In this document: piece after piece, positions 30,681 to 59,662 of the stretch
Numbering within the stretch: the first letter of the stretch is position 1
How the letters are laid out: each line of letters opens with the position of its first letter
NCBI RefSeq assembly: GCF_002736145.1
Contig: NZ_CP024160.1
Location: 1,488,001 to 1,552,000 of the forward strand
DNA length: 64,000 bases
Source: Collinsella aerofaciens
Lineage (GTDB): Bacteria > Actinomycetota > Coriobacteriia > Coriobacteriales > Coriobacteriaceae
Reading direction: 5' to 3'
Position numbers and translations under genes: made by a program
The notes under the pieces: model-generated
Database searches by the model: none
Told to the model about the DNA's origin: nothing
The model's input: only the letters and a program-made list of their open reading frames with translations

Positions 30681-31505
30681 CTACGCCAGCACGCCGAAGA
30701 ACGCGCCGACGATGCCCACGACCATGGTGGCCACGATCAGCACCATGGGGTTGATCTTCTTGGACAGCAGCCAGTAGTACAGCCAGAAGGCGAGCATGCC
30801 GAGCATGCCGGGCATGATGCCGTCCAGGATGTCCTGGAGGGTCTGGGCGTCCTCGCCCGAGCCGATGGCCACCGGGATGCTGGCCCAGAACATGTCCTTG
30901 CACATGGCGCCCACGACCATGACGCCCACGATGCCGACGCAGGTCATGATCTTCTGCATGAGGCCGGTCCTCTGGGCCTCGTCCAGGAAGCCCACGCCCA
31001 GCTCGTAGCCCTTGACGGCGCCCCAGACGCGCAGCGCGAAGCCGGGGACGTTGTAGATGAGCAGGAAGGCGATGGGGCCGAAGGGGTTGCCGGCCTGGCA
31101 CAGGCTGATGCCCACCGCGGCGGCGACCACGCGCAGCGTCGACAGGAAGATGGAGTCGCCGATGCCGGACAGCGGGCCCATGAGGGCGGCCTTGACGTCG
31201 TTGACGCTCTCGGGCTCGATCTCGCCGCGGGCGACCTTCTCCTCCATGGCCATCGCGATGCCGCCGACGAACGGGGCGAACTGGACGGTGATGTTGAAGA
31301 ACGCGCAGTGGCGGTGCAGGGCCTCGGCGTAGTCGTCGGGGCGGCCGGCGTAGATCTTCTTGAGCATGTTGGCGACCATCAGGCAGAAGGCGATGTTCAT
31401 CTGCTTGTAGTAGGTCCAGGAGAACTCCATGCCCAGGGCGCCGACGTTGACGGCGCTCTTGACGAGGTCGGAGCGCGTGATCTTGTTCTCGGGACTAGAA
31501 GTCAT
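30681..31505 (-). CDS. PTS mannose-family IID component (cluster C), duplicate
   Basis: Identical in protein to the IID of cluster B (274 residues), with the same EIID-Man features. It is the last gene of the operon SIS-frlB-IIA-IIB-IIC-IID and ends in TAG just before a terminator. The identity extends 5' of the gene into IIC (to 31734), showing recent duplication or gene conversion with cluster B. The start at 31505 overlaps IIC by 11 bases. Confidence 0.93.
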   Translation of the reverse strand: MTSSPENKITRSDLVKSAVNVGALGMEFSWTYYKQMNIAFCLMVANMLKKIYAGRPDDYAEALHRHCAFFNITVQFAPFVGGIAMAMEEKVARGEIEPESVNDVKAALMGPLSGIGDSIFLSTLRVVAAAVGISLCQAGNPFGPIAFLLIYNVPGFALRVWGAVKGYELGVGFLDEAQRTGLMQKIMTCVGIVGVMVVGAMCKDMFWASIPVAIGSGEDAQTLQDILDGIMPGMLGMLAFWLYYWLLSKKINPMVLIVATMVVGIVGAFFGVLA

Positions 31506-31734
31506 CGTCCTCATCCCCTTCCGCGGAGAGCTGGGGCTGGGCTCCGCCCAGGCCGAGCAGGTCGAACTTGTCGATGCCGATGATGATGGCGATCAGGGCG
31601 ACGCCCAGGACGGGCACGTTGGCGTAGGAGCACAGCAGGAAGCCCAGGAAGTAGAAGGGCACGAGCTGCTTGGTGAGCACCAGGCGGCCGAGCATGGCGA
31701 AGCCCATGGCCGGCAGGATGTTGGCGGCAACGCC
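30682..31734. repeat. 1053-bp identical block, cluster C copy
   Basis: Corresponds to 27890-28942 (offset 2792). It covers all of IID and the 3' third of IIC. No difference was seen within the block, while both flanks diverge sharply. Confidence 0.9.
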
Positions 31735-32268
31735 AAAGCCAGCAAGGACAAAGGGCGGGATGAAGTCGAGCATGCCCTGGATAGCGTCAGCACCCAGATA
31801 GAACGACAGCGAGCACAGCAGGAACGCCATGATGACACCGGTGGAACCGATCAGGAAGTGCATCGCATAGACACCCTTAAGGTTGCCCTGGCCGGAGAAG
31901 ACATCAGCGCGGTCAACCAAGATCGGCAGGGCGGCGTTGAGGATGTTCTTGATGGCAAGGCACAGCGTGGCGATGGGCATAGCGAGCGCGATGGCTGCCT
32001 CGGTGCTCTGGCCCAGCTGGATAGCGAAGGCACAGGCGAGCACGCCGCCGATCGTCTCATCAGGCGGCACGTAGGCGCCGATGGAGATCGAGCCCATGAA
32101 CAGCAGCTCCAGGCTCGCACCGATCGCGAGACCAGACTGCAGGTCCCCCAGCACCAGGCCCACGAGCGGGCACAGGACGATGGGGCGGAACGCGTAGAGC
32201 GTACCGAGCTGGTAGTCGAACTTACCAAATGCGGCGATAAGTCCGATGAGGATTGCTTGGGTAAGCAT
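31495..32268 (-). CDS. PTS mannose/sorbose-family IIC component (cluster C)
   Basis: A 257-residue EII-Sor permease, colinear with cluster B IIC; the C-terminal third is identical and the N-terminal part is very similar ('RPIVLCPLVGLVLGDLQSGLAIGASLELLFMGSISIGAYVPPDE'). The central region (about 125-165) differs and may set substrate preference. It lies 58 bases after IIB; ATG at 32268 follows GGAAAGGGGGATAT. Confidence 0.93.
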   Translation of the reverse strand: MLTQAILIGLIAAFGKFDYQLGTLYAFRPIVLCPLVGLVLGDLQSGLAIGASLELLFMGSISIGAYVPPDETIGGVLACAFAIQLGQSTEAAIALAMPIATLCLAIKNILNAALPILVDRADVFSGQGNLKGVYAMHFLIGSTGVIMAFLLCSLSFYLGADAIQGMLDFIPPFVLAGFGVAANILPAMGFAMLGRLVLTKQLVPFYFLGFLLCSYANVPVLGVALIAIIIGIDKFDLLGLGGAQPQLSAEGDEDDDF

Positions 32269-32326
32269 ATATCCCCCTTTCCTAATAGGACACTACGAAG
32301 AGCTCAGGCTCTTCGAATTCAAACGC

Positions 32327-32809
32327 CTAGAGCACGCTTGCGCAGTCAACCTTGGGGTCATCGGCAAGGGGTCGAATCTCGACCTCAACGCCACGATCCA
32401 GCATCTCGCGCACATCGGCTTCCTCGGCCGCGGTCAGGAAGATCTGACGAGAGACCTGACGAGCGTCGGGACGCTTCTCGTCCTTGGGCTTGGTGTTACC
32501 CAAGTTGACCGACTTGATCTGCGGGCAGCCCTCAACAAGCTGCTTTGCCTCAGCGATGGTGGCGACGCAAATGATCATCTTGTACTTGTCGGTCACGCCC
32601 GAATTGATAGCTTCGATGGCATGCTCCATATCTTTGATGACGAGCTTACAGCCGGCAGGCTTGCCCATCTTGAGCGTCGTCTTCCACACCGGGTCGTTGG
32701 CGACCTTATCGCCCACGCAGAAGATGCAGTTGGAGCCAAGGCCCTGAACCCAGGAAACTGCGACCTGGCCATGAAGCAGGCGATGGTCAACGCGAAGTAG
32801 CTGAATCAT
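32327..32809 (-). CDS. PTS mannose-family IIB component (cluster C)
   Basis: A 160-residue phosphocarrier beginning 'MIQLLRVDHRLLHGQVAVSW' with the active histidine at about H13, then 'GCKLVIKDMEHAIEAINSGVTDKYK' and 'SVNLGNTKPKDEKRPDARQVSRQIFLT'. It is similar to but clearly diverged from the cluster A IIB, with a few extra residues before the conserved 'ARQVS'. ATG at 32809 is chosen by analogy to cluster A; GGGGGGTCACATT precedes it. Confidence 0.95.
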   Translation of the reverse strand: MIQLLRVDHRLLHGQVAVSWVQGLGSNCIFCVGDKVANDPVWKTTLKMGKPAGCKLVIKDMEHAIEAINSGVTDKYKMIICVATIAEAKQLVEGCPQIKSVNLGNTKPKDEKRPDARQVSRQIFLTAAEEADVREMLDRGVEVEIRPLADDPKVDCASVL

Positions 32810-47146: not shown

Positions 47147-47236
47147 ACAATAGGCGTATCGAATCAGAACATCGGAGGCGGACTGCATACCCATCGGCAG
47201 GCCGACCCCACAACAAGAAGGTTGGTGAGCGCATTC

Positions 47237-48742
47237 ATGGAGCGTGCAAGCGGCGTCCTCATGCCCGTCTCATCTCTGCCCGGACCATACGGAATCGGCG
47301 GCTTTGGCTGGAATGCCTACGACTTCGTCGATTTTCTCGCCTCGTGCAAACAACATTACTGGCAGATTCTGCCCCTTACGACGACCAGCTATGGCGATTC
47401 GCCCTATCAGTCGTTCTCGGCCCGCGCAGGCAACCCCAACTTTATCGACTTTGCCGAGCTTATCGAGGCAGGGTATCTGGAGCAGCGCGATATCGATGGC
47501 GTGTATCTGGGATCCGACCCCAGCAATGTCGACTACGGTGCTATCTTTGGCGGCCGCCGTCAGATTCTCGACCGCGCCGCTGAGCGCTTTGCTGCCGACA
47601 AGCCGGCCGATTTCGATGACTTTATCCAGGCCAACGAGGACTGGCTCATCCCCTACTGTGAGTTCATGACCGTCAAAGAGGAGTGCGGTCTCAAGGCGTT
47701 TTGGGAGTGGCCCGCGGAGCTCCGCACCCGCGGCGAGGCTACCGCCAAGGTCTGCGCCGACCATCCGGCGCGTATGCTCTACCACCAGATGACGCAGTAC
47801 TTCTTCGATCGCCAGTGGAGCCGCCTCAAGGCCTATGCCAACGAGCGCGACATTCTTATCATCGGCGACCTACCCATCTATGTCTCGCGTGACTCCGTCG
47901 AGATGTGGGCGACACCCGAGCTCTTTAAGATCGACGCCGCCGGCAATCCCGTGAGCGTCGCCGGCACGCCGCCCGACCAGTTCTCGGCCACCGGCCAGTA
48001 CTGGGGCAACCCCATCTACGACTGGGACGCCATGGAGGCCGACGGCTTCTCCTGGTGGGAGGGCCGCATTCGCGCCGCCCTCGACATGTACGACGTCATC
48101 CGCCTGGATCACTTCCGCGGCTTCGAGGCCTATTGGGAGGTGCCGTTCTCCTCGCCCGATTCGTCCTACGGTTCGTGGACGCAGGGTCCCGGCCTCAAGC
48201 TCTTCAAGACGCTCGAGGAAAAGCTCGGCACGCTGCCCATCATCGCCGAGGACCTGGGCTTCCTCACCCCCGGCGTCATCGACATGCGCGACAACTCAGG
48301 CTTCCCCGGCATGAAGATCCTGCAGTTTGCCTTTGAGGGCACCAACTCGTACTACCTGCCGCACAACTACATTGCCAACACCGTCGCCTACGTGGGCACC
48401 CACGACAACGAGACGGCGCGCGGCTGGTTTGAGGGAACGGCCACCCCGCGTCAGCGCGAGCAGGCAGCCCTGTACACCCATCAGCAGGCCGGCGAACCCA
48501 TGGCAGATGCACTCAATCGCACCATCGCCGCCAGCGTGAGCGACACGTGCATCTACACCATGCAGGACCTGCTTAACCTGGGCAATGAGGCGCGCATCAA
48601 CACCCCTGCCACCCTGGGCGGCAACTGGACCTGGCGCATGCTCGACGGCGCCATCACCCGCGAGCTCGAGCACAAACTCACCGACTGGACCGAGACCTAC
48701 TTCCGCATCCCGTCGGAAGCCGAAATCGAGCTTCCTCAATAG
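47237..48742 (+). CDS. malQ: 4-alpha-glucanotransferase (amylomaltase, GH77)
   Basis: A 501-residue enzyme that transfers maltodextrin segments and releases glucose. GH77 motifs: 'SPYQSFSARAGNPNFIDF', 'IIGDLPIYVSRDSVEMWA', nucleophile region 'DVIRLDHFRGFEAYWEVP', acid/base 'PIIAEDLGFLTPGV' and 'VGTHDNETARGWF'. Length is typical of the short form. I chose the ATG at 47237 with GGTGAG seven bases upstream; TTG or GTG starts a few codons earlier are possible. With GlgP it would degrade maltodextrins imported by the ABC system. Confidence 0.96.
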   Translation: MERASGVLMPVSSLPGPYGIGGFGWNAYDFVDFLASCKQHYWQILPLTTTSYGDSPYQSFSARAGNPNFIDFAELIEAGYLEQRDIDGVYLGSDPSNVDYGAIFGGRRQILDRAAERFAADKPADFDDFIQANEDWLIPYCEFMTVKEECGLKAFWEWPAELRTRGEATAKVCADHPARMLYHQMTQYFFDRQWSRLKAYANERDILIIGDLPIYVSRDSVEMWATPELFKIDAAGNPVSVAGTPPDQFSATGQYWGNPIYDWDAMEADGFSWWEGRIRAALDMYDVIRLDHFRGFEAYWEVPFSSPDSSYGSWTQGPGLKLFKTLEEKLGTLPIIAEDLGFLTPGVIDMRDNSGFPGMKILQFAFEGTNSYYLPHNYIANTVAYVGTHDNETARGWFEGTATPRQREQAALYTHQQAGEPMADALNRTIAASVSDTCIYTMQDLLNLGNEARINTPATLGGNWTWRMLDGAITRELEHKLTDWTETYFRIPSEAEIELPQ

Positions 48743-48871: not shown

Positions 48872-51139
48872 ATGCCCCGCATCAATCTCGCGGATCTTGC
48901 CGAGCAGTCCTTTGGAACTTCGCTCGAGCAACTCGATGACCGCCGCATTTACAAACTGCTGGTCAAGCTCGTGCAGGAGCGCTCTGCCGCCTGCCCGCTC
49001 AACAACGGCAAGAAAAAGCTCTATTACATTTCCGCCGAATTTTTGATCGGCAAGCTGCTCATCAACAACATGATCGACCTCGGCATCTACGACGAGGTTA
49101 AGGACCAGCTCACCGCCGCAGGCCACGACCTCAACAAGATCGAGGAGTTCGAGGTCGAGCCGTCGCTCGGCAACGGCGGCCTGGGCCGCCTGGCCGCGTG
49201 CTTCCTGGATTCCATCGCCACGCTGGGCTTGACCGGCGATGGCGTGGGCCTCAACTATCACTACGGTCTGTTCCGTCAGCGCTTTGTCGACAACCAGCAG
49301 AAGGCCGTCCCCGACGAGTGGCTCGGTGAGCAGGACATCCTAGTCGACGATGACCGCTCCTACACCGTCGAGTTCGGCGATTTTGCCGTTACCTCCAAGC
49401 TCGTCAACATCGACGTGCCCGGTTACGGCCAGCCCACCAAGAACCGCCTGCGCCTGTTCGACCTGGCGAGCGTCGACGACGGCCTGGTCCCCGGCAGCTC
49501 CATCGACTTCGACAAGACCGAGATCGCCAAGAACCTCACCTTGTTCCTCTACCCCGACGATTCCGACGAGCAGGGCCGTCTGCTTCGCATCTACCAGGAA
49601 TACTTCATGGTGAGCAACGCCGCCCAGCTCCTGATCGACGAGGCCATCGAGCGCGGCAGCAACCTGCACGATCTGGCCGACTACGCCGTGGTCCAAATTA
49701 ACGACACGCACCCCACCATGGTCATCCCCGAGCTCGTTCGCTTGCTCACCACCGAGCATGGCATCGAGTTTGATGAGGCCGTGACCATCGTACGCTCCAT
49801 GGTCGCCTACACTAACCACACGATTCTTGCCGAGGCGCTCGAGAAGTGGCCGCTCGCCAGCCTGCAGAAGGTCTCCCCTGCCATCGCCGACATTATCGTC
49901 AAGCTCGATGAGATCGCGAAGGCCGAGCACGATGACCCGCGCGTCGCCATCATCGACGAATACGACACCGTCCACATGGCCCACATGGACATCCACTTTG
50001 GCTTCTCCATCAACGGCGTAGCCGCCCTCCACACCAAGATCCTGGAGGACACCGAGCTTCATCCGTTCTACGAGATCTATCCCGAGAAGTTCTCCAACAA
50101 GACCAACGGCATCACCTTCCGCCGCTGGATCCATGGGGCCAACCCCGCGCTCGCCAGCCTGCTCGACGATGTGATCGGCACCGACTGGCGCAGCACCGGC
50201 GATCTGAGCAAACTCGCCAAGTTCGCCGACGACAAGGATGTTCTTGAGCGCCTGGCCGCCACCAAGACCGAGGCCAAGGCCATCATGCGCCAGTTCATGG
50301 CGCTCGAGCAAGGCGTGACTATCCCGTCCAACGCCATCATCGATGTTCAGGTCAAGCGTATCCACGAGTACAAGCGCCAGCAGATGCTCGCACTCTACAT
50401 CATCTGGAAGTACCTCGATATCAAGAACGGCAACAGACCTAAGCACCCCGTCACCATCATCTTTGGCGGCAAGGCGGCGCCTGCCTACACTATCGCGCAG
50501 GACATCATCCATCTGATCCTGACGCTGTCGCAGTGGATTGCAAACGACCCCGACGTGGCTCCCTACCTGCAGGTTGTCATGATCGAGAACTACAACGTCA
50601 CTGCCGCCGAGCGCGTGATCCCCGCCGCTGACATCTCCGAGCAGATCAGCCTGGCCTCCAAGGAGGCGAGCGGCACCTCCAACATGAAGTTCATGCTCAA
50701 CGGCGCCCTAACCCTGTGCACGCTCGACGGTGCCAACGTGGAGATTGCCGAGCTCGTGGGCGACGAGAACATCTATACCTTTGGTGCCTCGTCCAAACAG
50801 GTCGAGCAGCTCTACGCCGACGGCACCTATGACGCCGGTGTGCTCTACCGCAAGCCCGGCATTAAACTGCTGGTGGACTTCATCACCAACCCGGCCTTTA
50901 TGGCGACCGGCAACGCCGAGCGCCTGCAGCGCCTGCACGACGACATTAAGGGCAAGGACTGGTTTATGGCCCTGCTCGACATTGAGGAGTACATCCAGAC
51001 CAAGGAGCGCGTGCTGGCCGACTACGAGGACCAGGACGCCTGGATGCGCAAGGCGCTCATCAATATCGCCAACGCCGGCACCTTCTCGTCCGACCGTACG
51101 ATCTCCCAGTACAACGACGAGATCTGGCACCTGAGCTAG
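48872..51139 (+). CDS. glgP: Glycogen/maltodextrin phosphorylase
   Basis: A 755-residue GT35 enzyme that releases glucose 1-phosphate from alpha-1,4-glucans. 'EPSLGNGGLGRLAACFLDSIATLGL' is the N-terminal substrate region, 'INDTHPTMVIPELVRLL' the loop, and 'EASGTSNMKFMLNGALTLCTLDGANVEI' contains the PLP-binding lysine. It is shorter than rabbit or E. coli enzymes because the allosteric N-terminal part is reduced. It follows malQ by 129 bases on the same strand. GGAGGAAAC precedes the ATG. Confidence 0.97.
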   Translation: MPRINLADLAEQSFGTSLEQLDDRRIYKLLVKLVQERSAACPLNNGKKKLYYISAEFLIGKLLINNMIDLGIYDEVKDQLTAAGHDLNKIEEFEVEPSLGNGGLGRLAACFLDSIATLGLTGDGVGLNYHYGLFRQRFVDNQQKAVPDEWLGEQDILVDDDRSYTVEFGDFAVTSKLVNIDVPGYGQPTKNRLRLFDLASVDDGLVPGSSIDFDKTEIAKNLTLFLYPDDSDEQGRLLRIYQEYFMVSNAAQLLIDEAIERGSNLHDLADYAVVQINDTHPTMVIPELVRLLTTEHGIEFDEAVTIVRSMVAYTNHTILAEALEKWPLASLQKVSPAIADIIVKLDEIAKAEHDDPRVAIIDEYDTVHMAHMDIHFGFSINGVAALHTKILEDTELHPFYEIYPEKFSNKTNGITFRRWIHGANPALASLLDDVIGTDWRSTGDLSKLAKFADDKDVLERLAATKTEAKAIMRQFMALEQGVTIPSNAIIDVQVKRIHEYKRQQMLALYIIWKYLDIKNGNRPKHPVTIIFGGKAAPAYTIAQDIIHLILTLSQWIANDPDVAPYLQVVMIENYNVTAAERVIPAADISEQISLASKEASGTSNMKFMLNGALTLCTLDGANVEIAELVGDENIYTFGASSKQVEQLYADGTYDAGVLYRKPGIKLLVDFITNPAFMATGNAERLQRLHDDIKGKDWFMALLDIEEYIQTKERVLADYEDQDAWMRKALINIANAGTFSSDRTISQYNDEIWHLS

Positions 51140-51595: not shown

Positions 51596-52795
51596 CTAGA
51601 TAAGGTTCTTGCCAGACACCTTATCGAAGAGATGAGTCGCGTTCTTCTCGAACTTGAACCAGATGGTGTCGCCCGCCTTGAGCGCGCCCTTGGCCTCAAG
51701 GTCGACAACGGGAATGATCAGGACGAACTGGCCATCGGGAGCAGTCACGTGGACATGCTCGGTCGAACCCATGAGCTCGGTCACCTCGACGGTGCCCTGG
51801 AGCGCACCCTCCTCGCCCTTGTCGGCAAGCAGGATCTGCTCGGGGCGCACGCCGGCCGTGATCTCCTTCACGTCGCCGCCGTCCCAGTTGAGAGCAAGCT
51901 GAGCGCAGGTCTCGGGGGCCAGCGCGACATTCATGTCGTCGGTCTTGACGGTAAAGCCGTTGCCCGAGCGCACCAGCTGGGCATCGAAGAAGTTCATCTG
52001 CGGCACGCCGATAAAGCCGGCGACGAAGATGTTCGCGGGATGGTTGAAGACCTCCTGCGGGGTGGCGATCTGCTGGACGACGCCGTCCTTCATGACCACG
52101 ATGCGGTCGCCGAGGGTCATAGCCTCGGTCTGGTCGTGGGTAACGTAGATGAAGGTGCCCTTGATCTCGTGACGCAGCTTAATGAGCTCGGCGCGCATCT
52201 GGTTGCGAAGCTTGGCATCCAGGTTGGACAGGGGCTCGTCCATCAGGAAGACCTTGGGGTCACGCACGATGGCGCGGCCGATGGCGACGCGCTGGCGCTG
52301 GCCGCCAGAGAGCGCCTTGGGCTTACGGTCGAGGTACTCGGTAATACCCAGGATCTCAGCAGCGGAGCGAACCTTACGGTCGATCTCGTCCTTGGGGACC
52401 TTCTTGAGCTCGAGCGTAAACGCCATGTTCTCGTACACCGTCATATTGGGATACAGAGCATAGCTCTGGAACACCATGGCGATGTCGCGGTCCTTGGGAG
52501 CGACGTCGTTGACGCGCTTGCCATCGATGAGCACATCGCCCGAGGTGATGTCCTCCAGGCCGGCGATCATGCGCATCGTCGTGGACTTACCGCAGCCAGA
52601 GGGGCCAACGAGGACGATGAACTCCTGGTCGTGAACGGTGAGGTTGAAGTCCTCTACAGCAAGCACACCGTCCTCGGTAACCTTGAGGTTGTGCTTCTTC
52701 TCCTCGGTCTTCTTCTTTTTGCCAAAGAAGCCCTTCTTTTTTGACTCGTTGTTGGGATACACCTTCTGAACATGTTTGAGAACGATCTCGGCCAT
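51596..52795 (-). CDS. MalK/MsmK-type sugar ABC transporter ATPase
   Basis: A 399-residue ATPase driving sugar import. Walker A 'VGPSGCGKSTTMRMIAG', Q loop 'QSYALYPNMTV', signature 'LSGGQRQRVAIGRAIV', Walker B 'VFLMDEPLSNLDA' and H loop 'YVTHDQTEAMTL' are present, then the C-terminal regulatory OB domain. Between residues about 12 and 45 there is a lysine/glutamate-rich insert ('KKKGFFGKKKKTEEKKHNL') not usual in this family. It follows the two permease genes on the same strand and probably serves them; such ATPases often serve several importers. Confidence 0.95.
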   Translation of the reverse strand: MAEIVLKHVQKVYPNNESKKKGFFGKKKKTEEKKHNLKVTEDGVLAVEDFNLTVHDQEFIVLVGPSGCGKSTTMRMIAGLEDITSGDVLIDGKRVNDVAPKDRDIAMVFQSYALYPNMTVYENMAFTLELKKVPKDEIDRKVRSAAEILGITEYLDRKPKALSGGQRQRVAIGRAIVRDPKVFLMDEPLSNLDAKLRNQMRAELIKLRHEIKGTFIYVTHDQTEAMTLGDRIVVMKDGVVQQIATPQEVFNHPANIFVAGFIGVPQMNFFDAQLVRSGNGFTVKTDDMNVALAPETCAQLALNWDGGDVKEITAGVRPEQILLADKGEEGALQGTVEVTELMGSTEHVHVTAPDGQFVLIIPVVDLEAKGALKAGDTIWFKFEKNATHLFDKVSGKNLI

Positions 52796-52863: not shown

Positions 52864-53703
52864 TCAGCCCTTGACGGCACCTGCCACAACGCCGTCAATG
52901 ATGTACTTCTGGCAGAAGATGTACATGATGACGATGGGGATGACGACCATCATGATGCATGCCATCATGGGGCCGAGCTCGACGTGGCCATAGCCGCCAC
53001 GGAAGTACTGGATCAAGATAGGAATGGTCTTGTACTTGGTGGAGTCGAGCGTAAGGTAGGGCAGCAGATAGTCGTTCCAGACCCACATGGTCTCAAGGAT
53101 GCCGACCGAAAGATAGGTGGGCTTCATAATGGGAAGGACGATCTTAAAGAACACCTGGACCGGGTTGCAGCCGTCGATCATGGCCGCTTCCTCAATCTCG
53201 AGCGGGATGTTCTTGACGAAGCCGGCGAACATAAAGACCGCGAGGCCCGCGCCAAAACCAAGGTAGATGAAGCAGATGTTGAACGGCGTGTTGAAGCCGA
53301 TGCGGTCCGCGAGGTTGGACAGCGTGAACATGAGCATCTGGAACGGTACGACCATCGAGAAGACGAACAGGTAATAGAAGAAGTTCGAGATCTTGCTGTT
53401 GACGCGCACCACGTACCAAGCGCACATGGAGCAGCACACCAGAATCAGCACGACCGACGTGACCGTGATGATAAGCGAGTACATAAACGCCGAGGCAAAG
53501 CCCTGCTCGTTAAGGGCGTGCATGTAGTTTGCGAGGCCGTTGAACGTCTCGGGCGTGAGCAGATCGAATGCCGTGGTGGTGCTGATTGCAGTTGCCTTTT
53601 TAAAGGAATTGAGCGCAATCATGAACACGGGATAGATCCACGCGAGCGACAGAATCGTAAAGAAAATCGAGAGCGCGCGGTTGATAACCTTATCGCGTTT
53701 CAT
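52864..53703 (-). CDS. Carbohydrate ABC transporter permease (MalG type)
   Basis: A 279-residue membrane subunit with six hydrophobic helices. The EAA loop that contacts the ATPase reads 'LEIEEAAMIDGCNPVQVFFKIVLP' (about 185-208). It overlaps the MalF-type gene by one base and lies 68 bases before the ATPase gene. With that partner it forms the channel of an alpha-glucoside/maltodextrin-type importer; the substrate is inferred from the neighbouring malQ and glgP. Confidence 0.94.
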   Translation of the reverse strand: MKRDKVINRALSIFFTILSLAWIYPVFMIALNSFKKATAISTTTAFDLLTPETFNGLANYMHALNEQGFASAFMYSLIITVTSVVLILVCCSMCAWYVVRVNSKISNFFYYLFVFSMVVPFQMLMFTLSNLADRIGFNTPFNICFIYLGFGAGLAVFMFAGFVKNIPLEIEEAAMIDGCNPVQVFFKIVLPIMKPTYLSVGILETMWVWNDYLLPYLTLDSTKYKTIPILIQYFRGGYGHVELGPMMACIMMVVIPIVIMYIFCQKYIIDGVVAGAVKG

Positions 53704-54557
53704 TACTGCTGCACCTCCTTGGACCTCGTGGCCTTAAGCTGAATCATGGAGATGGCTACGACCAGGATGCAGAAGATAACCGCCTTGGCCTGACCGATGC
53801 CCTGCCATGCGATACCGGCACGCGAATAGAACGTGTTGTAGATGTTCAGGGCGAGCATCTCGGTGGAGTGCGCCGGGGCGCCACCGGTAAGGGCGAGGTT
53901 CTGGTCGAACAGCTTAAAGCCGTTGGTGATGGACAGGAACAGGCAGATGGTGATGGTCGGCATCAGGTTGGGGATCTTAACCTTCCAAAACGTCTGCCAT
54001 GCCGTAGCGCCATCGACCTTGGCGGCCTCGATGTAGTCAGACGGAATGGACTGCAGACCGGCGATGTAGATGATCATCATGTAGCCGACCTGTTGCCACA
54101 GGGTCAGGATGATAAGGCCCCAGAAGCCAGCGGCGGAGTTGAGGGCGATAAGCTGGGCACCCACGTTGGAGAGCAGGCAGTTGATCAGAATCTGCCAAAT
54201 GTAACCCAGTACAATGCCGCCAATCAGGTTAGGCATAAAGAAAATCGTACGGAAGATGTTGGTGCCCTTGAGCGCCTTGCGAGTGAGCGCCTGCGCAATG
54301 GCCAGCGCGATCACGTTGATGAGCACCGTCGACAGGAAGGCAAACGCCACGGTAAAGAAGAACGACGTGGAGAACTGCGGGTCGGTCAGTGCGCGCACGT
54401 AGTTCTCGATACCGACAAAGTGCGCGTTATTGATGGTAATAAACTGGCAGAACGAGAGATAGAAACCCTGGATAAAGGGAATCACGAACCCGATCATAAA
54501 CGCCAGGCACGTGGGCAGCATAAAGAGCGGCCACCAGCGCTTGAGTGCTTTGCCCAT
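53703..54557 (-). CDS. Carbohydrate ABC transporter permease (MalF type)
   Basis: A 284-residue permease with six helices; 'GIENYVRALTDPQF' precedes the core domain and the EAA loop is 'SDYIEAAKVDGATAWQTFWKVKIPNL'. It lacks the large periplasmic domain of enteric MalF, as is normal for Gram-positive members. It is 87 bases after the binding-protein gene; a strong hairpin lies in that gap. Confidence 0.94.
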   Translation of the reverse strand: MGKALKRWWPLFMLPTCLAFMIGFVIPFIQGFYLSFCQFITINNAHFVGIENYVRALTDPQFSTSFFFTVAFAFLSTVLINVIALAIAQALTRKALKGTNIFRTIFFMPNLIGGIVLGYIWQILINCLLSNVGAQLIALNSAAGFWGLIILTLWQQVGYMMIIYIAGLQSIPSDYIEAAKVDGATAWQTFWKVKIPNLMPTITICLFLSITNGFKLFDQNLALTGGAPAHSTEMLALNIYNTFYSRAGIAWQGIGQAKAVIFCILVVAISMIQLKATRSKEVQQ

Positions 54558-54644: not shown

Positions 54645-55961
54645 TTACTCGGAAGCAGCCTTCTCGGTCTTCCAGCCATCGACGAAGGCGTTCTTGACGC
54701 CGTCCCACTTGGTGTTGTCGGCAGCATAAGCGATGAGAGCCTGCTTGAGGTTCTTCTTCCACTCCTCGGAGGGGATGTAAACGAAGTCCCAAGCGACGGT
54801 CTTCTTGCCGTCCTTGGCCATGGCAACGGCCTGCTGTGAGAAGACGTTGGTGGTCTCCTTAGCGCTCTTGAACGGGGCGGTCAGACCCATCTTGTCAGCG
54901 ATGATGCTGGTGGCGGTGTCAGAAGTGACGCACCAATACATGAAGTCCTCGGTGGCCTTCTGAGCATCCTCGGAAGCCTGGGAGCTCACGCACCAGTAGT
55001 TCTCGCCGCCGGAGCACAGGCCCTGGTTCTCCTCGCCGTCAACGCCGATGTAGATCGGCAGCATGCCGAGCTGATCGTCGGTCATACCGGCCTTGGTGAG
55101 GTCGGCGTAGGCCCAAGAGCCGTTCTGGTAGAAGACGGCCTTGCCGGTTGCGAACTCGTTGGTGGCGTCGTCACCGGTCTTGGAGGCGAGCTGCGAAGGA
55201 TCGCAGGTGGAGTCGGTGATGTACAGGTCGAAGATCTGCTTAAAGTTGTCGAGATACTCGCCCTTGATCTCGTCGTCCTCCTGGTTGTGCTCCTTCTCGA
55301 ATTCGTAGTAGAGCGGGAGGTTGGCGAGGTGGGTGGTGTAGCGCCAGCTGGAGGAGTCATCCATGCCGGCGGAAGTGAAGGCACCGTCAACGCCGAGCTC
55401 GTCCTTGCGGGCCTGGATGTCATCGGCGCAAGCCTTCAGCTTGTCGAAGGAGTTGATGTCCTCGGCCTTGTAGCCAGCCTTCTCGAGGAGCTCCTTGTTG
55501 TAGATGATGCCGTAGCTCTCCTGAACCCAGTCGATACCCAGATCCTTGCCGTCGGACTGCAGAGCCAGGGAGTCGTCGATGAGCTCGCCGCGGAGCTTGG
55601 TGTCGGACAGATCGGCGCAGTAATCCTTCCAGTTCTTAAGACCGGTGGGGCCGTTGACCTGGAACAGCGTCGGAGCGGAGCTCTTGGACATCTCGGACTT
55701 GAGCTTCTCCTCGTAGGTGTTGGAGGCGGCGGTCACGATCTTGACCTCGACGCCCTTCTCCTTCTTGTACGCCTTGGCGATCTCCTTCCACTCCTTGTCG
55801 ACCTCGGGCTTGAACTGGAGGAAGTAGACCTCGGCAGCGTCACCAGAAGCAGAGGAGCCAGAGCCGGCAGAACCACCGCAGCCCACGAGGCCTAGACCAA
55901 GAACCGCAGCCGCGGAACCAGCAAAGCCCAGGAACTGCCTTCTGCTCATTTCGTTCTTCAT
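54645..55961 (-). CDS. Sugar ABC transporter substrate-binding lipoprotein
   Basis: A 438-residue extracellular solute-binding protein (family 1). The N-terminus 'MSRRQFLGFAGSAAAVLGLGLVGCGG' combines a twin-arginine-like start with a lipobox ending at a cysteine (about C33 from ATG 55961), so it is anchored to the outer face of the membrane. The mature part starts with a Ser/Gly linker, then 'VYFLQFKPEVDKEWKEIAKAYKKEKG' typical of MalE-like proteins. It is first of the binding protein-MalF-MalG-ATPase operon. ATG at 55961 follows GGGTGGATTGTA. Confidence 0.93.
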   Translation of the reverse strand: MKNEMSRRQFLGFAGSAAAVLGLGLVGCGGSAGSGSSASGDAAEVYFLQFKPEVDKEWKEIAKAYKKEKGVEVKIVTAASNTYEEKLKSEMSKSSAPTLFQVNGPTGLKNWKDYCADLSDTKLRGELIDDSLALQSDGKDLGIDWVQESYGIIYNKELLEKAGYKAEDINSFDKLKACADDIQARKDELGVDGAFTSAGMDDSSSWRYTTHLANLPLYYEFEKEHNQEDDEIKGEYLDNFKQIFDLYITDSTCDPSQLASKTGDDATNEFATGKAVFYQNGSWAYADLTKAGMTDDQLGMLPIYIGVDGEENQGLCSGGENYWCVSSQASEDAQKATEDFMYWCVTSDTATSIIADKMGLTAPFKSAKETTNVFSQQAVAMAKDGKKTVAWDFVYIPSEEWKKNLKQALIAYAADNTKWDGVKNAFVDGWKTEKAASE

Positions 55962-56267
55962 TACAATCCACCCTTTCACACCGTGGCGGCACCCTTTGCC
56001 GCCGCCTTCGGAGATTGGCTCGGGGACTTTGCCCCTTTTGCTGATTTGTACAATACGCTATTTGGCTAGTTGTTTGAACAAGTATTACTAGAGCGGTAGA
56101 AAAACTTCGGTGAACGGTAATTTCGACTTGATACTTGACAAGTTTTGTATAAACAATTATTTGTTATCGAATGCAGAGAAAACGCCCGGTCAAGCCGATG
56201 CATCGTCGGTTTGACCGGGCGTTTTCTCTTTGAGGGCATGAGTCTCGTCAGGCTGCGAGCTAGCCGG
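55962..56267. other. Promoter region of the ABC operon and GntR terminator
   Basis: It contains TGTTTGAACA (56071-56080) and TTGTTTATAC on the minus strand near 56147-56156, likely operators for the ABC operon, and the terminator at 56175-56231. No gene. Confidence 0.6.
56175..56231. terminator. Long terminator hairpin downstream of GntR gene
   Basis: AGAGAAAACGCCCGGTCAA/TTGACCGGGCGTTTTCTCT around a CGATGCATCG-like loop. The stem contains A and T runs, so it can work in both directions. Confidence 0.88.
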
Positions 56268-56987
56268 CTATCGCTTGGAGTTGACGCGGTAGTGGAAGAT
56301 CTCAGGATGCGTGCGGGCATGCGTGACCTCGAACAAGATGCCGTCCGAGGTGTACGACTGGCTCTCCATAACGGCGACGCAGTTGTACTTGCCAAGGTCC
56401 AAGTAGCTGCAGTCCTCATCGTTGGCAAGCTCGACGCTCACCGTACGGCGGCTCGCCATCACTTTGACGCCACGCTTGTGCTCCAGATAGTCGTAGATAG
56501 AGCTTGCCGCAATCTCGGGGGTCAGGCCCTTGGCGATCGACTCCAAAAAGTAGCCATGGTCCACCTGGCGCGCGCTGCCGTTGAGGCTTCGGACACGCAC
56601 GACGCGAATCAGCTCCTCGCCCACCTTAAAGCCAAGGCGGCGCGACAGTTGCTCAGTGCAAATCAAATGTTCAAAAGACTTGACCTCGGTCGATGCGACG
56701 GCATTGTTGCGTTTTGCGAACTCGCCAAACGACTCAACCTCTTCGAGTGCGCCCAACATGTCGGTTTCGCCCTTAAGCCAAATAACGCGCACGCCCTTGC
56801 CGTGTATGGGCTGCACAAACATCCCGTCGGCCAGCATACCCAGGGCGCGACGGACAGTATTGCGAGTACATCCGAACTCCGCGGTCAACTCAGCTTCGGT
56901 TGGCAGCATCTCCTGAAACGCATAGGTCCCATTAATGATGCGTGAGCGTATTTCTCGGTAGATTCCTTCGTATATCGCTTTTGGCAT
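56268..56987 (-). CDS. GntR-family regulator (TreR-like) of the alpha-glucan island
   Basis: A 239-residue protein with a GntR winged helix (about 5-70: 'MLPTEAELTAEFGCTRNTVRRALGML', 'IHGKGVRVI') and a UTRA domain ('ELIRVVRVRSLNGSARQVDHGYF', 'FEVTHARTHPEIFHYRV'). It is divergent from the PTS-HAD gene and next to the ABC operon. TGTTTAAAC palindromes lie before it and before its neighbours. A phosphorylated disaccharide, as for TreR, is a plausible effector. Confidence 0.88.
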   Translation of the reverse strand: MPKAIYEGIYREIRSRIINGTYAFQEMLPTEAELTAEFGCTRNTVRRALGMLADGMFVQPIHGKGVRVIWLKGETDMLGALEEVESFGEFAKRNNAVASTEVKSFEHLICTEQLSRRLGFKVGEELIRVVRVRSLNGSARQVDHGYFLESIAKGLTPEIAASSIYDYLEHKRGVKVMASRRTVSVELANDEDCSYLDLGKYNCVAVMESQSYTSDGILFEVTHARTHPEIFHYRVNSKR

Positions 56988-57040
56988 GACTTCACCTCTA
57001 ATGAATATGTATGGCTAGGCACGATAGCATTTCTTTGGGT

Positions 57041-57172
57041 TGTTTAAACCGATTATCGGTAAAGCACGGATTATTTACCGTCGACGGTTCCCCCGAAACC
57101 CAAATCGGACCGAATCAAAACCGTCAATGCGGCAAGCAGCCAGTCCTCTACAATGAGTTCATTGTTTAAACG
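57041..57172. promoter_or_regulatory. Divergent promoter region with two TGTTTAAAC operators
   Basis: TGTTTAAACC at 57041-57050 precedes the GntR gene and TGTTTAAACG at 57163-57172 precedes the PTS-HAD gene. Both match the sites at 47128 and 56071. Confidence 0.65.
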
Positions 57173-57211
57173 TTCTTGCTCGCACAGCATGTTGCATCCG
57201 GAAGGCATATT

Positions 57212-59662
57212 ATGCTGCAAAAAATCCAACGCTTTGGCGGGGCGATGTTCGCGCCCGCCATGCTGTTTTCTATATCAGGCCTCATGGTCGGCATCTCCGC
57301 CCTCGCCACGACCGTAGACATCGTCGGTGACCTCGCCGTATACGGAACCCCTTGGTACGTTTTCTGGACCATCATCCAGCGCGGCTCGTGGACGGTCTTT
57401 AAACGTCTCCCGCTCCTTTTTGCCGTAGCGCTGCCTATCGGTCTTGCCCAAAAGCAACCGGCACGCTGCTGCCTCGAGGCGCTCGTGGCCTATTTTGCCT
57501 ATTGCTTCTTTTTGAGCGAGATCATTAAGCTGAGCGGAGACAACCTTGGGCTTAAGTACCCATCATCTTTGACCCCCGCCAGCGGTATCACCGTCATCGA
57601 CGGCATCAAGACGCTCGACACCGGCATTATCGGCCCGCTGGCGGTATCGGCAACCGTCGTCGCCATCCATGACCGCTTCTACGATGCCAAGGTTCCCGAT
57701 TGGCTCGGCACCTTCTCGGGTTCCTCGCTGGTCTACCTCATCAGCTTTTTTGCCGTGTTTGCCCTTGCCGCCATCTCGGCCGCCATCGTGCCCTTCGCAT
57801 ACGCTGTGACCGAAACGCTGCGCCACGCACTTGCGGGCGTCGGCCCCTTCGGCGTGGGCATCTTTGTGTTTTTGGAGCGAGCACTCGAGCCCATGGGGCT
57901 GCACCACCTTCTCTATATGCCCATCTATTACGACAATCTGGTCATTCACGACGGTATTTACGCCACGTGGACCAACCTGCTCCCCATTCTCTCCCATAGC
58001 ACGCGCCCTTTAAATGAACTTGCGCCCTGGGCAGGTTTTACCGCCACCGGCTGGGGCAAGCTCTTTGGCCTTCCCGCCATCGCGGCAGCATTCTATTTCA
58101 CCGCCAAACCCGAACGCCGCGCCGGCCTTAAGGTCATCCTTTTGCCCGCCATCGTCGCCTCGGTGGTCTGCGGTGTCACCGAGCCGCTCGAGTTTCTCTT
58201 TATGTTCACCTATCCTGGACTCTTTTTGCTCTACGCCGTCCTATCCTCCTGCCTTGCCATGACCATGAACTTCTTTGGCATCGTCGGCATCTTCTCGGGC
58301 GGTCTCATGGAAATGACGGCCTTCAACTTCATCCCACTCATGCGAATGCATGCCGGCTCCTACCTTTTGGCGCTCGGTATCGGTCTTGCCTTTAGCCTCA
58401 TCTTTTTTGTTAGTTTTCGAGCACTCATCTTGGTCTATGACCTTAAGACGCCGGGCCGCGAGGATCATGTCTCCAATCGCGCGGCAATCGACCGTTTAAC
58501 GGGAAGCGGCTTTGCCAAAGAGCAATCTCCCAATGGCGAGGTCAGTATTCAATCCGATCAAGATCACGTCCTCGCTGAGCGGGTAATTCAGCTTTTAGGT
58601 GGCGTTGGCAATATCGTGGGCGCAACCAACTGCGCCACGCGCCTGCGCGTCGAGGTCGCAGACCCTTCCATCGTTGCAGATAATGCGTCGTTTGTCGCGG
58701 TGGGCGCCAAGGGCCTCATCATTACGGGCAAGACCGCCCAGGTGATTATCGGCATCTCCGTTCCCCGCGTTAAAGAGCATTTTGACCAGATCATGGGCCT
58801 CGAGCCGGGATTTGTGCCCACCACCTCGGCCTCCCCTGCCGCCAGCGCAGCCCATAAGCGCGGCGATATCTGCTTCTTCGACATCGACGGCACGCTCGCC
58901 TGGCAAGACCCTCGAGTGGCACAAGAGCTTCCCGAGGATGAGCGAGACCTCTCCCCCTATCCCAATGAAGCGGTCTCGCAAGCCATCCGTGATTTTGTTG
59001 CCAAGGGCAATATGGCGTTTATCTGCACAGGGCGCACGCTGAGCTGCATCCATCCAAAGCTGCTCGAGCTGCCCTGGACCGGCATCGTCTGCCTCGCGGG
59101 TGGCTATGTCGAACTTGAGGGACGCGTGATTCGCGATTTGGCGATGACGCCCGGCATGCTGCAGCGCCTTGCTCCCATTCTTGAGCAATCGGACGAAGTG
59201 ATTCGTTTTGAGGGACTCAATGGCGTCGTTCGCATGAGTGCCGATGCGCCCGACGCCCCCGGATACGCCCGCACCGTGGGCGATGCAATTACGCAGCTGC
59301 AACATTACAGCGCCTACAAGATCTTAATGTCCACGTCGCTTGCCAACCGCATCGCTCAGGATCAAGCGTTTGAGCCGCTGCTCTGCTTTAACGAGCTCGA
59401 ACTCGAGGTAACCGAAATCTCGCCCCGCGAATGCACGAAGCGCGGGGGCATCCAGTCTGTACTCGACGCCCTCGATCCCCACCACGGAACCGTATACGGC
59501 ATCGGCGACGCCAGCAATGACGTCTCGCTGATGAACGCCGTCGACGTTGGCATCGCTATGGGCAACGCACCGGACTTCCTTAAGGAAAAGGCCGACTATG
59601 TCACCGACAGCATCGACCACGACGGCGTCGTCACCGCGCTCGAACACTTTGGGCTTATCTAG
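57212..59662 (+). CDS. PTS IICB permease fused to a HAD-superfamily phosphatase
   Basis: An 816-residue three-part protein. Residues about 1-415 are a glucose-superfamily EIIC with about ten helices ('GVTEPLEFLFMFTYPGLFL' motif near 330). Residues about 445-520 are EIIB with the phospho-cysteine at C474 in 'ATNCATRLRVEV'. Residues about 550-816 are a Cof-type HAD hydrolase: D557 in 'FFDIDGTLA', 'FICTGRT', and D766/D770 in 'GIGDASNDVSL'. No IIA domain. It would phosphorylate a sugar during import; the HAD domain could remove phosphate from it. Context points to maltose or a similar alpha-glucoside. ATG at 57212 follows GGAAGG. Confidence 0.92.
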   Translation: MLQKIQRFGGAMFAPAMLFSISGLMVGISALATTVDIVGDLAVYGTPWYVFWTIIQRGSWTVFKRLPLLFAVALPIGLAQKQPARCCLEALVAYFAYCFFLSEIIKLSGDNLGLKYPSSLTPASGITVIDGIKTLDTGIIGPLAVSATVVAIHDRFYDAKVPDWLGTFSGSSLVYLISFFAVFALAAISAAIVPFAYAVTETLRHALAGVGPFGVGIFVFLERALEPMGLHHLLYMPIYYDNLVIHDGIYATWTNLLPILSHSTRPLNELAPWAGFTATGWGKLFGLPAIAAAFYFTAKPERRAGLKVILLPAIVASVVCGVTEPLEFLFMFTYPGLFLLYAVLSSCLAMTMNFFGIVGIFSGGLMEMTAFNFIPLMRMHAGSYLLALGIGLAFSLIFFVSFRALILVYDLKTPGREDHVSNRAAIDRLTGSGFAKEQSPNGEVSIQSDQDHVLAERVIQLLGGVGNIVGATNCATRLRVEVADPSIVADNASFVAVGAKGLIITGKTAQVIIGISVPRVKEHFDQIMGLEPGFVPTTSASPAASAAHKRGDICFFDIDGTLAWQDPRVAQELPEDERDLSPYPNEAVSQAIRDFVAKGNMAFICTGRTLSCIHPKLLELPWTGIVCLAGGYVELEGRVIRDLAMTPGMLQRLAPILEQSDEVIRFEGLNGVVRMSADAPDAPGYARTVGDAITQLQHYSAYKILMSTSLANRIAQDQAFEPLLCFNELELEVTEISPRECTKRGGIQSVLDALDPHHGTVYGIGDASNDVSLMNAVDVGIAMGNAPDFLKEKADYVTDSIDHDGVVTALEHFGLI

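Follow-up and report, generated by a model that had tools for sequence, protein, structure and literature searches.

The window, a stretch of 64,000 nucleotides of Collinsella aerofaciens (contig NZ_CP024160.1), carries a gene coding for an 816-residue protein that joins a permease of the phosphotransferase system (PTS) to a phosphatase of the HAD superfamily (Table 1). It had been described in the initial annotation as part of an island with malQ, glgP and maltodextrin ABC importer genes, and domain and family searches agree with this description. The sugar-binding protein of the ABC importer has a twin-arginine-like signal (SRRQF) followed by a lipobox-like Cys (LVGCG). Elsewhere in the window (30681-32809) lie three mannose-family PTS genes (IID-, IIC- and IIB-like), similar copies of which recur in the window.

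A palindrome, TTGTTTAAACAA, is found with one or two differences 5' of malQ and of the ABC operon, as well as in the gap that separates gntR from the fusion gene. When both strands are counted and at most one mismatch is allowed, its 10-base core occurs eight times in the window, against 0.84 occurrences expected. Another 21 Collinsella loci also have the sites 5' of the ABC operon and of the fusion gene. At the loci with unfused permeases described below, all 31 matches to the palindrome are intergenic, where 3-5 would be expected from mononucleotide shuffles. The position of the palindrome makes it a probable operator for the GntR/UTRA regulator.

Table 1. Genes, protein domains and putative operator sites of the fusion locus (window positions)
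Feature	Position	Strand	Remarks
malQ, 4-alpha-glucanotransferase	47222..48742	+	
glgP, alpha-glucan phosphorylase	48872..51139	+	
ABC ATPase (UgpC/MalK/MsmK type)	51596..52795	-	
ABC sugar permease 2 (MalG-like)	52864..53703	-	
ABC sugar permease 1 (MalF/UgpA-like)	53703..54557	-	
ABC sugar-binding lipoprotein (SBP_bac_8/1)	54645..55979	-	
GntR/HutC-family regulator, UTRA domain	56268..56987	-	Nearest model TreR TIGR02404, below cut-off
EIICB-HAD fusion gene	57212..59662	+	816 aa; ATG 57212 is the start shared with homologues
EIIC membrane domain	57212..58465	+	Residues 1-418; Pfam PTS_EIIC 11-345
EIIC-EIIB linker	58466..58555	+	Residues 419-448; low model confidence; varies among species
EIIB domain	58556..58795	+	Residues 449-528; phosphocysteine Cys474 at 58631-58633
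EIIB-HAD linker	58796..58858	+	Residues 529-549; Ala/Ser/Pro-rich; disordered in model
HAD-IIB phosphatase domain (Cof-type, C2-cap)	58859..59659	+	D557, D559, T561, T606, K743, D766, D770 conserved
Putative GntR operator ATGTTTAAACAA	47127..47138	.	Upstream of malQ
Putative GntR operator TTGTTTGAACAA	56070..56081	.	Upstream of ABC operon
Putative GntR operator TTGTATAAACAA	56145..56156	.	Upstream of ABC operon
Putative GntR operator TTGTTTAAACCG	57040..57051	.	Between gntR and fusion gene
Putative GntR operator TTGTTTAAACGT	57162..57173	.	About 50 bp upstream of fusion gene

A PTS permease and a HAD phosphatase in a single protein

The reading frame of the fusion runs without internal stops from the ATG, which is preceded by a ribosome-binding-like GGAAGG, to a TAG at 59660-59662; a TTG at 57176 is an alternative upstream start. 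A Pfam search of the whole protein returned three domains above their gathering scores, PTS_EIIC (residues 11-345, 1.3e-38), PTS_EIIB (residues 457-488, 1.7e-11) and Hydrolase_3 (residues 555-810, 9.5e-28, 98 bits against a cut-off of 20.9). This confirms that a genuine glucose-superfamily EIIC-EIIB is joined to a complete Cof-type HAD-IIB phosphatase in one frame, as the initial annotation had proposed. A structure model of the full chain contains three folded units and two disordered linkers (419-448 and 529-549). Its pTM of 0.51 makes the relative placement of the domains unreliable, and the HAD rows were misaligned in their N-terminal half; only the domain boundaries and the linkers were taken from it.

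The best NCBIfam match of the fusion is TIGR02005 (alpha-glucoside EIIBC), which aligns full-length (residues 2-528 over model positions 1-524) with the domains in C-then-B order. The score of the fused EIICB, 501.9, is below the curated cut-off of 607.3, whereas unfused orthologous EIICBs of the HAD-linked and GH4-linked types exceed it, with 680 and 688 bits. These scores place the fused EIICB near the alpha-glucoside family, as a diverged relative and not as a strict TIGR02005 member. It also sits on a long branch relative to the HAD-linked unfused permeases (1.43 substitutions per site), a sign, perhaps, that its substrate or mechanism changed once the two genes were joined. Because of both the low score and the long branch, the sugar that it transports could have shifted. 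The phosphocysteine of the EIIB domain lies within the motif NCATRLR, which 17 of the 19 fused homologues have unchanged. The fusion contains no EIIA domain; the genome encodes four EIIA-Glc domains at other loci.

In the phosphatase part, the residues singled out earlier as catalytic (D557, D766 and D770) are in place, alongside D559, T561, T606 and K743, and HAD motifs I-IV (DxDGT, T/S, K and GDxxND) are complete. An alignment with 13 homologues, which addressed a possible loss of catalytic residues, showed that six of these seven are invariant and that T606 is T or S. Further invariant residues, including W564, E577, R578, H614 and P615, are particular to this HAD group. The domain was modelled with a pLDDT of 92.2 as a Rossmann core with a C2 cap. 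The structures nearest to the model are 3fzq, 3r4c (BT1666), 2pq0 (GK1056) and BT4131, with Z scores of 26-27.5 over 242-245 residues; according to the model, the domain is closest to BT4131-type sugar phosphatases. It scores 94.7 against TIGR00099, whose curated cut-off is 137. As HAD-IIB phosphatases are often promiscuous, the fold leaves the substrate unfixed.

Distribution and conservation of the fusion

Intact fusions of 816-817 residues, with 85-100% identity, were found in 23 of 45 Collinsella genomes. Fusion homologues in the contig collection come from 19 independently titled loci, all of them Collinsella and only close relatives. Among the 298 Coriobacteriia genomes sampled, the search for further such fusions yielded full-length ones in Collinsella alone, and none outside this genus came from the contig or plasmid collections. 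The search went less deep in other phyla, where rarer fusions are possible. An apparent 865-residue fusion at another locus (L067) was rejected, as its EIICB and HAD occupy different frames.

The occurrence of the same unbroken frame in 23 separate assemblies bears on the concern that two genes had been united by an assembly error or a frameshift. Apart from the existence of separate neighbouring EIICB and HAD genes in relatives, nothing favours such an artefact. The uninterrupted architecture of the Collinsella homologues, in genomes and in independently titled contigs, refutes it, and we regard its probability as virtually nil. Moreover, with dN/dS values of 0.06-0.15 between species, the HAD domain is under purifying selection; both linkers diverge more freely than this domain. 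In RefSeq, the protein is labelled simply 'PTS transporter subunit EIIC' (WP_195568734.1, C. aerofaciens). The initial annotation knew of no described IICB-HAD fusion with such a function; a limited search of open-access literature likewise brought up no account of an EIICB-HAD fusion.

Partner proteins of the unfused permeases

For comparison, we analysed 40 Coriobacteriales loci, with genes called by codon score, that encode 41 unfused EIICB homologues. The direct neighbour of the permease gene codes for a GH4 enzyme in 24 cases, for a HAD protein in 15 and for neither in two; none of the 41 permeases is adjoined by both. The HAD proteins, of ~270 residues, share 38-43% identity with the fused domain. 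In an IQ-TREE phylogeny, the HAD-linked and fused EIICBs form one clade (100/98), with the GH4-linked EIICBs outside, and within it the fused permeases form a single clade (100/100). Because the tree unites HAD-linked and fused permeases in this way, the simplest history would be a single replacement of GH4 by HAD, followed by a single fusion in Collinsella. On the sequence evidence, the fusion arose by the joining of neighbouring EIICB and HAD genes that are still separate in another family of Coriobacteriales.

Of the GH4 enzymes adjoining EIICB, 21 of 24 have a CDMP motif, a mark of 6-phospho-alpha-glucosidases. The three that were examined share 58-67% identity with annotated 6-phospho-alpha-glucosidases of Cetobacterium, Companilactobacillus, Lacticaseibacillus and Aerococcus, whose genes adjoin the same type of permease. 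Since the GH4 enzymes of the sister operons match these annotated proteins, sequence comparison indicates that the HAD protein occupies the operon slot of a 6-phospho-alpha-glucosidase, the enzyme that normally consumes the product of the permease.

We searched 299 genomes of the order with a profile built from this HAD group. Members score at least 360 bits and other HAD proteins at most 204 bits; the high scores of the sequences used to build the profile are expected by construction, which does not apply to the held-out cases or to the gap. Fused members were detected in Collinsella only. The 18 unfused members each lie beside an EIICB, including three (from G244, G721 and G733) that had been left out of the profile building.

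The gene neighbourhoods also differ between the two types of loci. In the stretches fetched, malQ, glgP, maltodextrin ABC genes or an amylase accompany 12-13 of the 15 HAD loci (the range reflects one locus with a weak glgP match only) and none of the 24 GH4 loci (Fisher p ~1e-8, uncorrected for relatedness). Assemblies of three species (G003, G011 and G022) encode the fusion and no GH4 enzyme, which fits the HAD domain as the sole outlet for the imported sugar.

Several other loci are of note. At one of them (L064, 6100-7695), an EIICB on a basal branch of the HAD clade is adjoined by neither HAD nor GH4; it may represent an intermediate or a loss. On a plasmid of Aerococcus tenax (CP127381.1, 324-7172), an alpha-glucoside IIBC cluster encodes a 6-phospho-alpha-glucosidase and also, three genes 3' of the permease, a HAD hydrolase. 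With just 21% identity to its Collinsella counterpart, this hydrolase may have been recruited independently. The window genome itself has a separate cluster of gntR, GH4 (CDMP) and EIIBC genes (L127, 6800-10619; G000:C1 about 2242800-2246618). Its GH4 shares 56-66% identity with annotated 6-phospho-alpha-glucosidases, and the paired permease has the B-C order.

Proposed function and alternatives

The idea of a self-dephosphorylating maltose transporter, put forward in the initial annotation, gains support from the unfused EIICB-HAD pairs and from the position of HAD in the slot of a 6-phospho-alpha-glucosidase. The alpha-glucoside family of the unfused relatives, the alpha-glucan neighbours and the common putative operator point in the same direction. 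We thus consider it probable that the fusion acts as a PTS permease for alpha-glucosides and strips off, with its own C-terminal phosphatase, the phosphate that it adds. EIIA-Glc, which has four copies at other places in the genome, would phosphorylate EIIB. The sugar brought in by EIIC-EIIB in its 6-phosphate form would be maltose, or else a similar alpha-glucoside or short maltodextrin. Hydrolysis at the membrane by the attached HAD domain would then release free maltose, which would enter the MalQ-GlgP route to yield glucose and glucose 1-phosphate. The GntR regulator would jointly control malQ-glgP, the maltodextrin ABC importer and the PTS-HAD gene through the common palindrome.

Some points speak against this proposal. 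Spending PEP on a phosphate that is then thrown away is energetically costly, and the regulator appears more similar to TreR than to any maltose regulator. In addition, the window genome encodes two CDMP-motif GH4 enzymes elsewhere, so that HAD is not the sole conceivable route there; they could also cleave the phosphorylated alpha-glucoside.

The resemblance of the regulator to TreR, with a score of 160 bits where the cut-off is 212, raises the alternative that the permease takes up another alpha-glucoside, such as trehalose, and that HAD frees trehalose, isomaltose, kojibiose, turanose or the like from its 6-phosphate. The putative operator TTGTTTAAACAA resembles TreR-type half sites, and the HAD model is distantly similar to trehalose-6-phosphate phosphatase (Z 18-20). 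However, the neighbours and co-regulated genes of the HAD lineage (malQ, glgP, ABC importer and amylase) belong to alpha-glucan metabolism, and the permease lineage is GlvC/MalB-like, with the C-B order, not TreB-like, with the B-C order. Trehalose is further disfavoured because no GH65 was found in the window genome and no TreC above the cut-off in any Collinsella genome examined. On balance, we find this alternative unlikely.

Two other roles for the phosphatase were considered. It might serve as a safety valve acting, in the vicinity of the permease, on glucose 6-phosphate or other sugar phosphates that build up, for relief of phosphosugar stress or for sugar efflux, and its HAD-IIB relatives BT4131, YbiV/SupH and YidA are indeed general sugar phosphatases. 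This is quite unlikely, given that in one permease clade HAD substitutes for the catabolic GH4 and is not added to it; from a safety valve one would expect neither exclusion of the glucosidase nor an exclusive link to this permease. The tethering of HAD beside EIIB by a flexible linker could instead suggest a regulatory off switch that targets the PTS itself, namely phospho-EIIB or phospho-EIIA. Yet the ancestral HAD was a separate soluble protein, phosphatases with its C2-cap HAD-IIB fold typically act on small molecules and the GH4/HAD swap indicates a metabolic replacement, which makes such a switch highly improbable.

Returning to the self-dephosphorylating permease, a tentative extension, which we hold to be possible rather than probable, is that the PTS here would operate as a PEP-driven concentrative importer of free disaccharide. 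The phosphosugar made on EIIB would be channelled to the tethered HAD domain, or hydrolysed by it, before reaching the cytosol, and this self-contained replacement for a 6-phospho-alpha-glucosidase would have evolved once in Coriobacteriales, by a partner swap and then a fusion. The PTS is defined by the delivery of phosphorylated sugar; a permease with its own phosphatase would in effect import free sugar. The exchange of GH4 for HAD also offers a natural experiment, in which related gut bacteria pair matched permeases with one or the other partner. Adopting the proposed function would also put right how a conserved Collinsella protein is annotated.

Comparison with known systems

The closest functional parallel is the MalT-MapP system of Enterococcus faecalis and probably Streptococcus mutans, which consists of a PTS EIICBA and a maltose 6'-phosphate phosphatase whose gene, mapP, adjoins that of the permease. 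There, the maltose phosphorylated by the PTS is dephosphorylated so that MalQ/GlgP-type enzymes can use it in free form, as we infer for Collinsella. In S. mutans, a site for one regulator lies 5' of malQ-glgP, of the maltose PTS gene, which is followed by that of a probable MapP, and of the maltodextrin ABC operon (PMC3737437); the layout of the Collinsella regulon parallels this arrangement. In contrast, MapP is a separate protein of the endonuclease/exonuclease/phosphatase family (PMC3737437), a fold that the Pfam search did not find in the phosphatase domain of the fusion, which is a HAD-IIB domain covalently joined to EIICB. The Collinsella system also differs in its GntR regulator and in belonging to Actinomycetota. 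Its HAD domain may work like MapP, but it is no MapP. If this is true, it would represent a second, non-homologous solution, besides MapP in Firmicutes, for passing maltose imported by a PTS on to a MalQ/phosphorylase pathway.

The alpha-glucoside PTS systems with GH4 enzymes (MalP/MalA of Bacillus subtilis, MalB/MalH of Fusobacterium and AglA/AglB of Klebsiella) share with the Collinsella system the EIICB family TIGR02005 and the operon slot of the partner. MalP of B. subtilis likewise lacks EIIA, which is supplied in trans (PMC6148471), as we propose for the fusion. Unlike these GH4 enzymes, the Collinsella phosphatase would release an intact disaccharide rather than glucose and glucose 6-phosphate. 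Finally, the Collinsella phosphatase matches the Cof-type HAD-IIB sugar phosphatases BT4131, BT1666, YidA and YbiV/SupH in its fold, its C2 cap and its catalytic motifs; these enzymes are free-standing, whereas members of the Collinsella-type group were found only next to an EIICB or joined to it.
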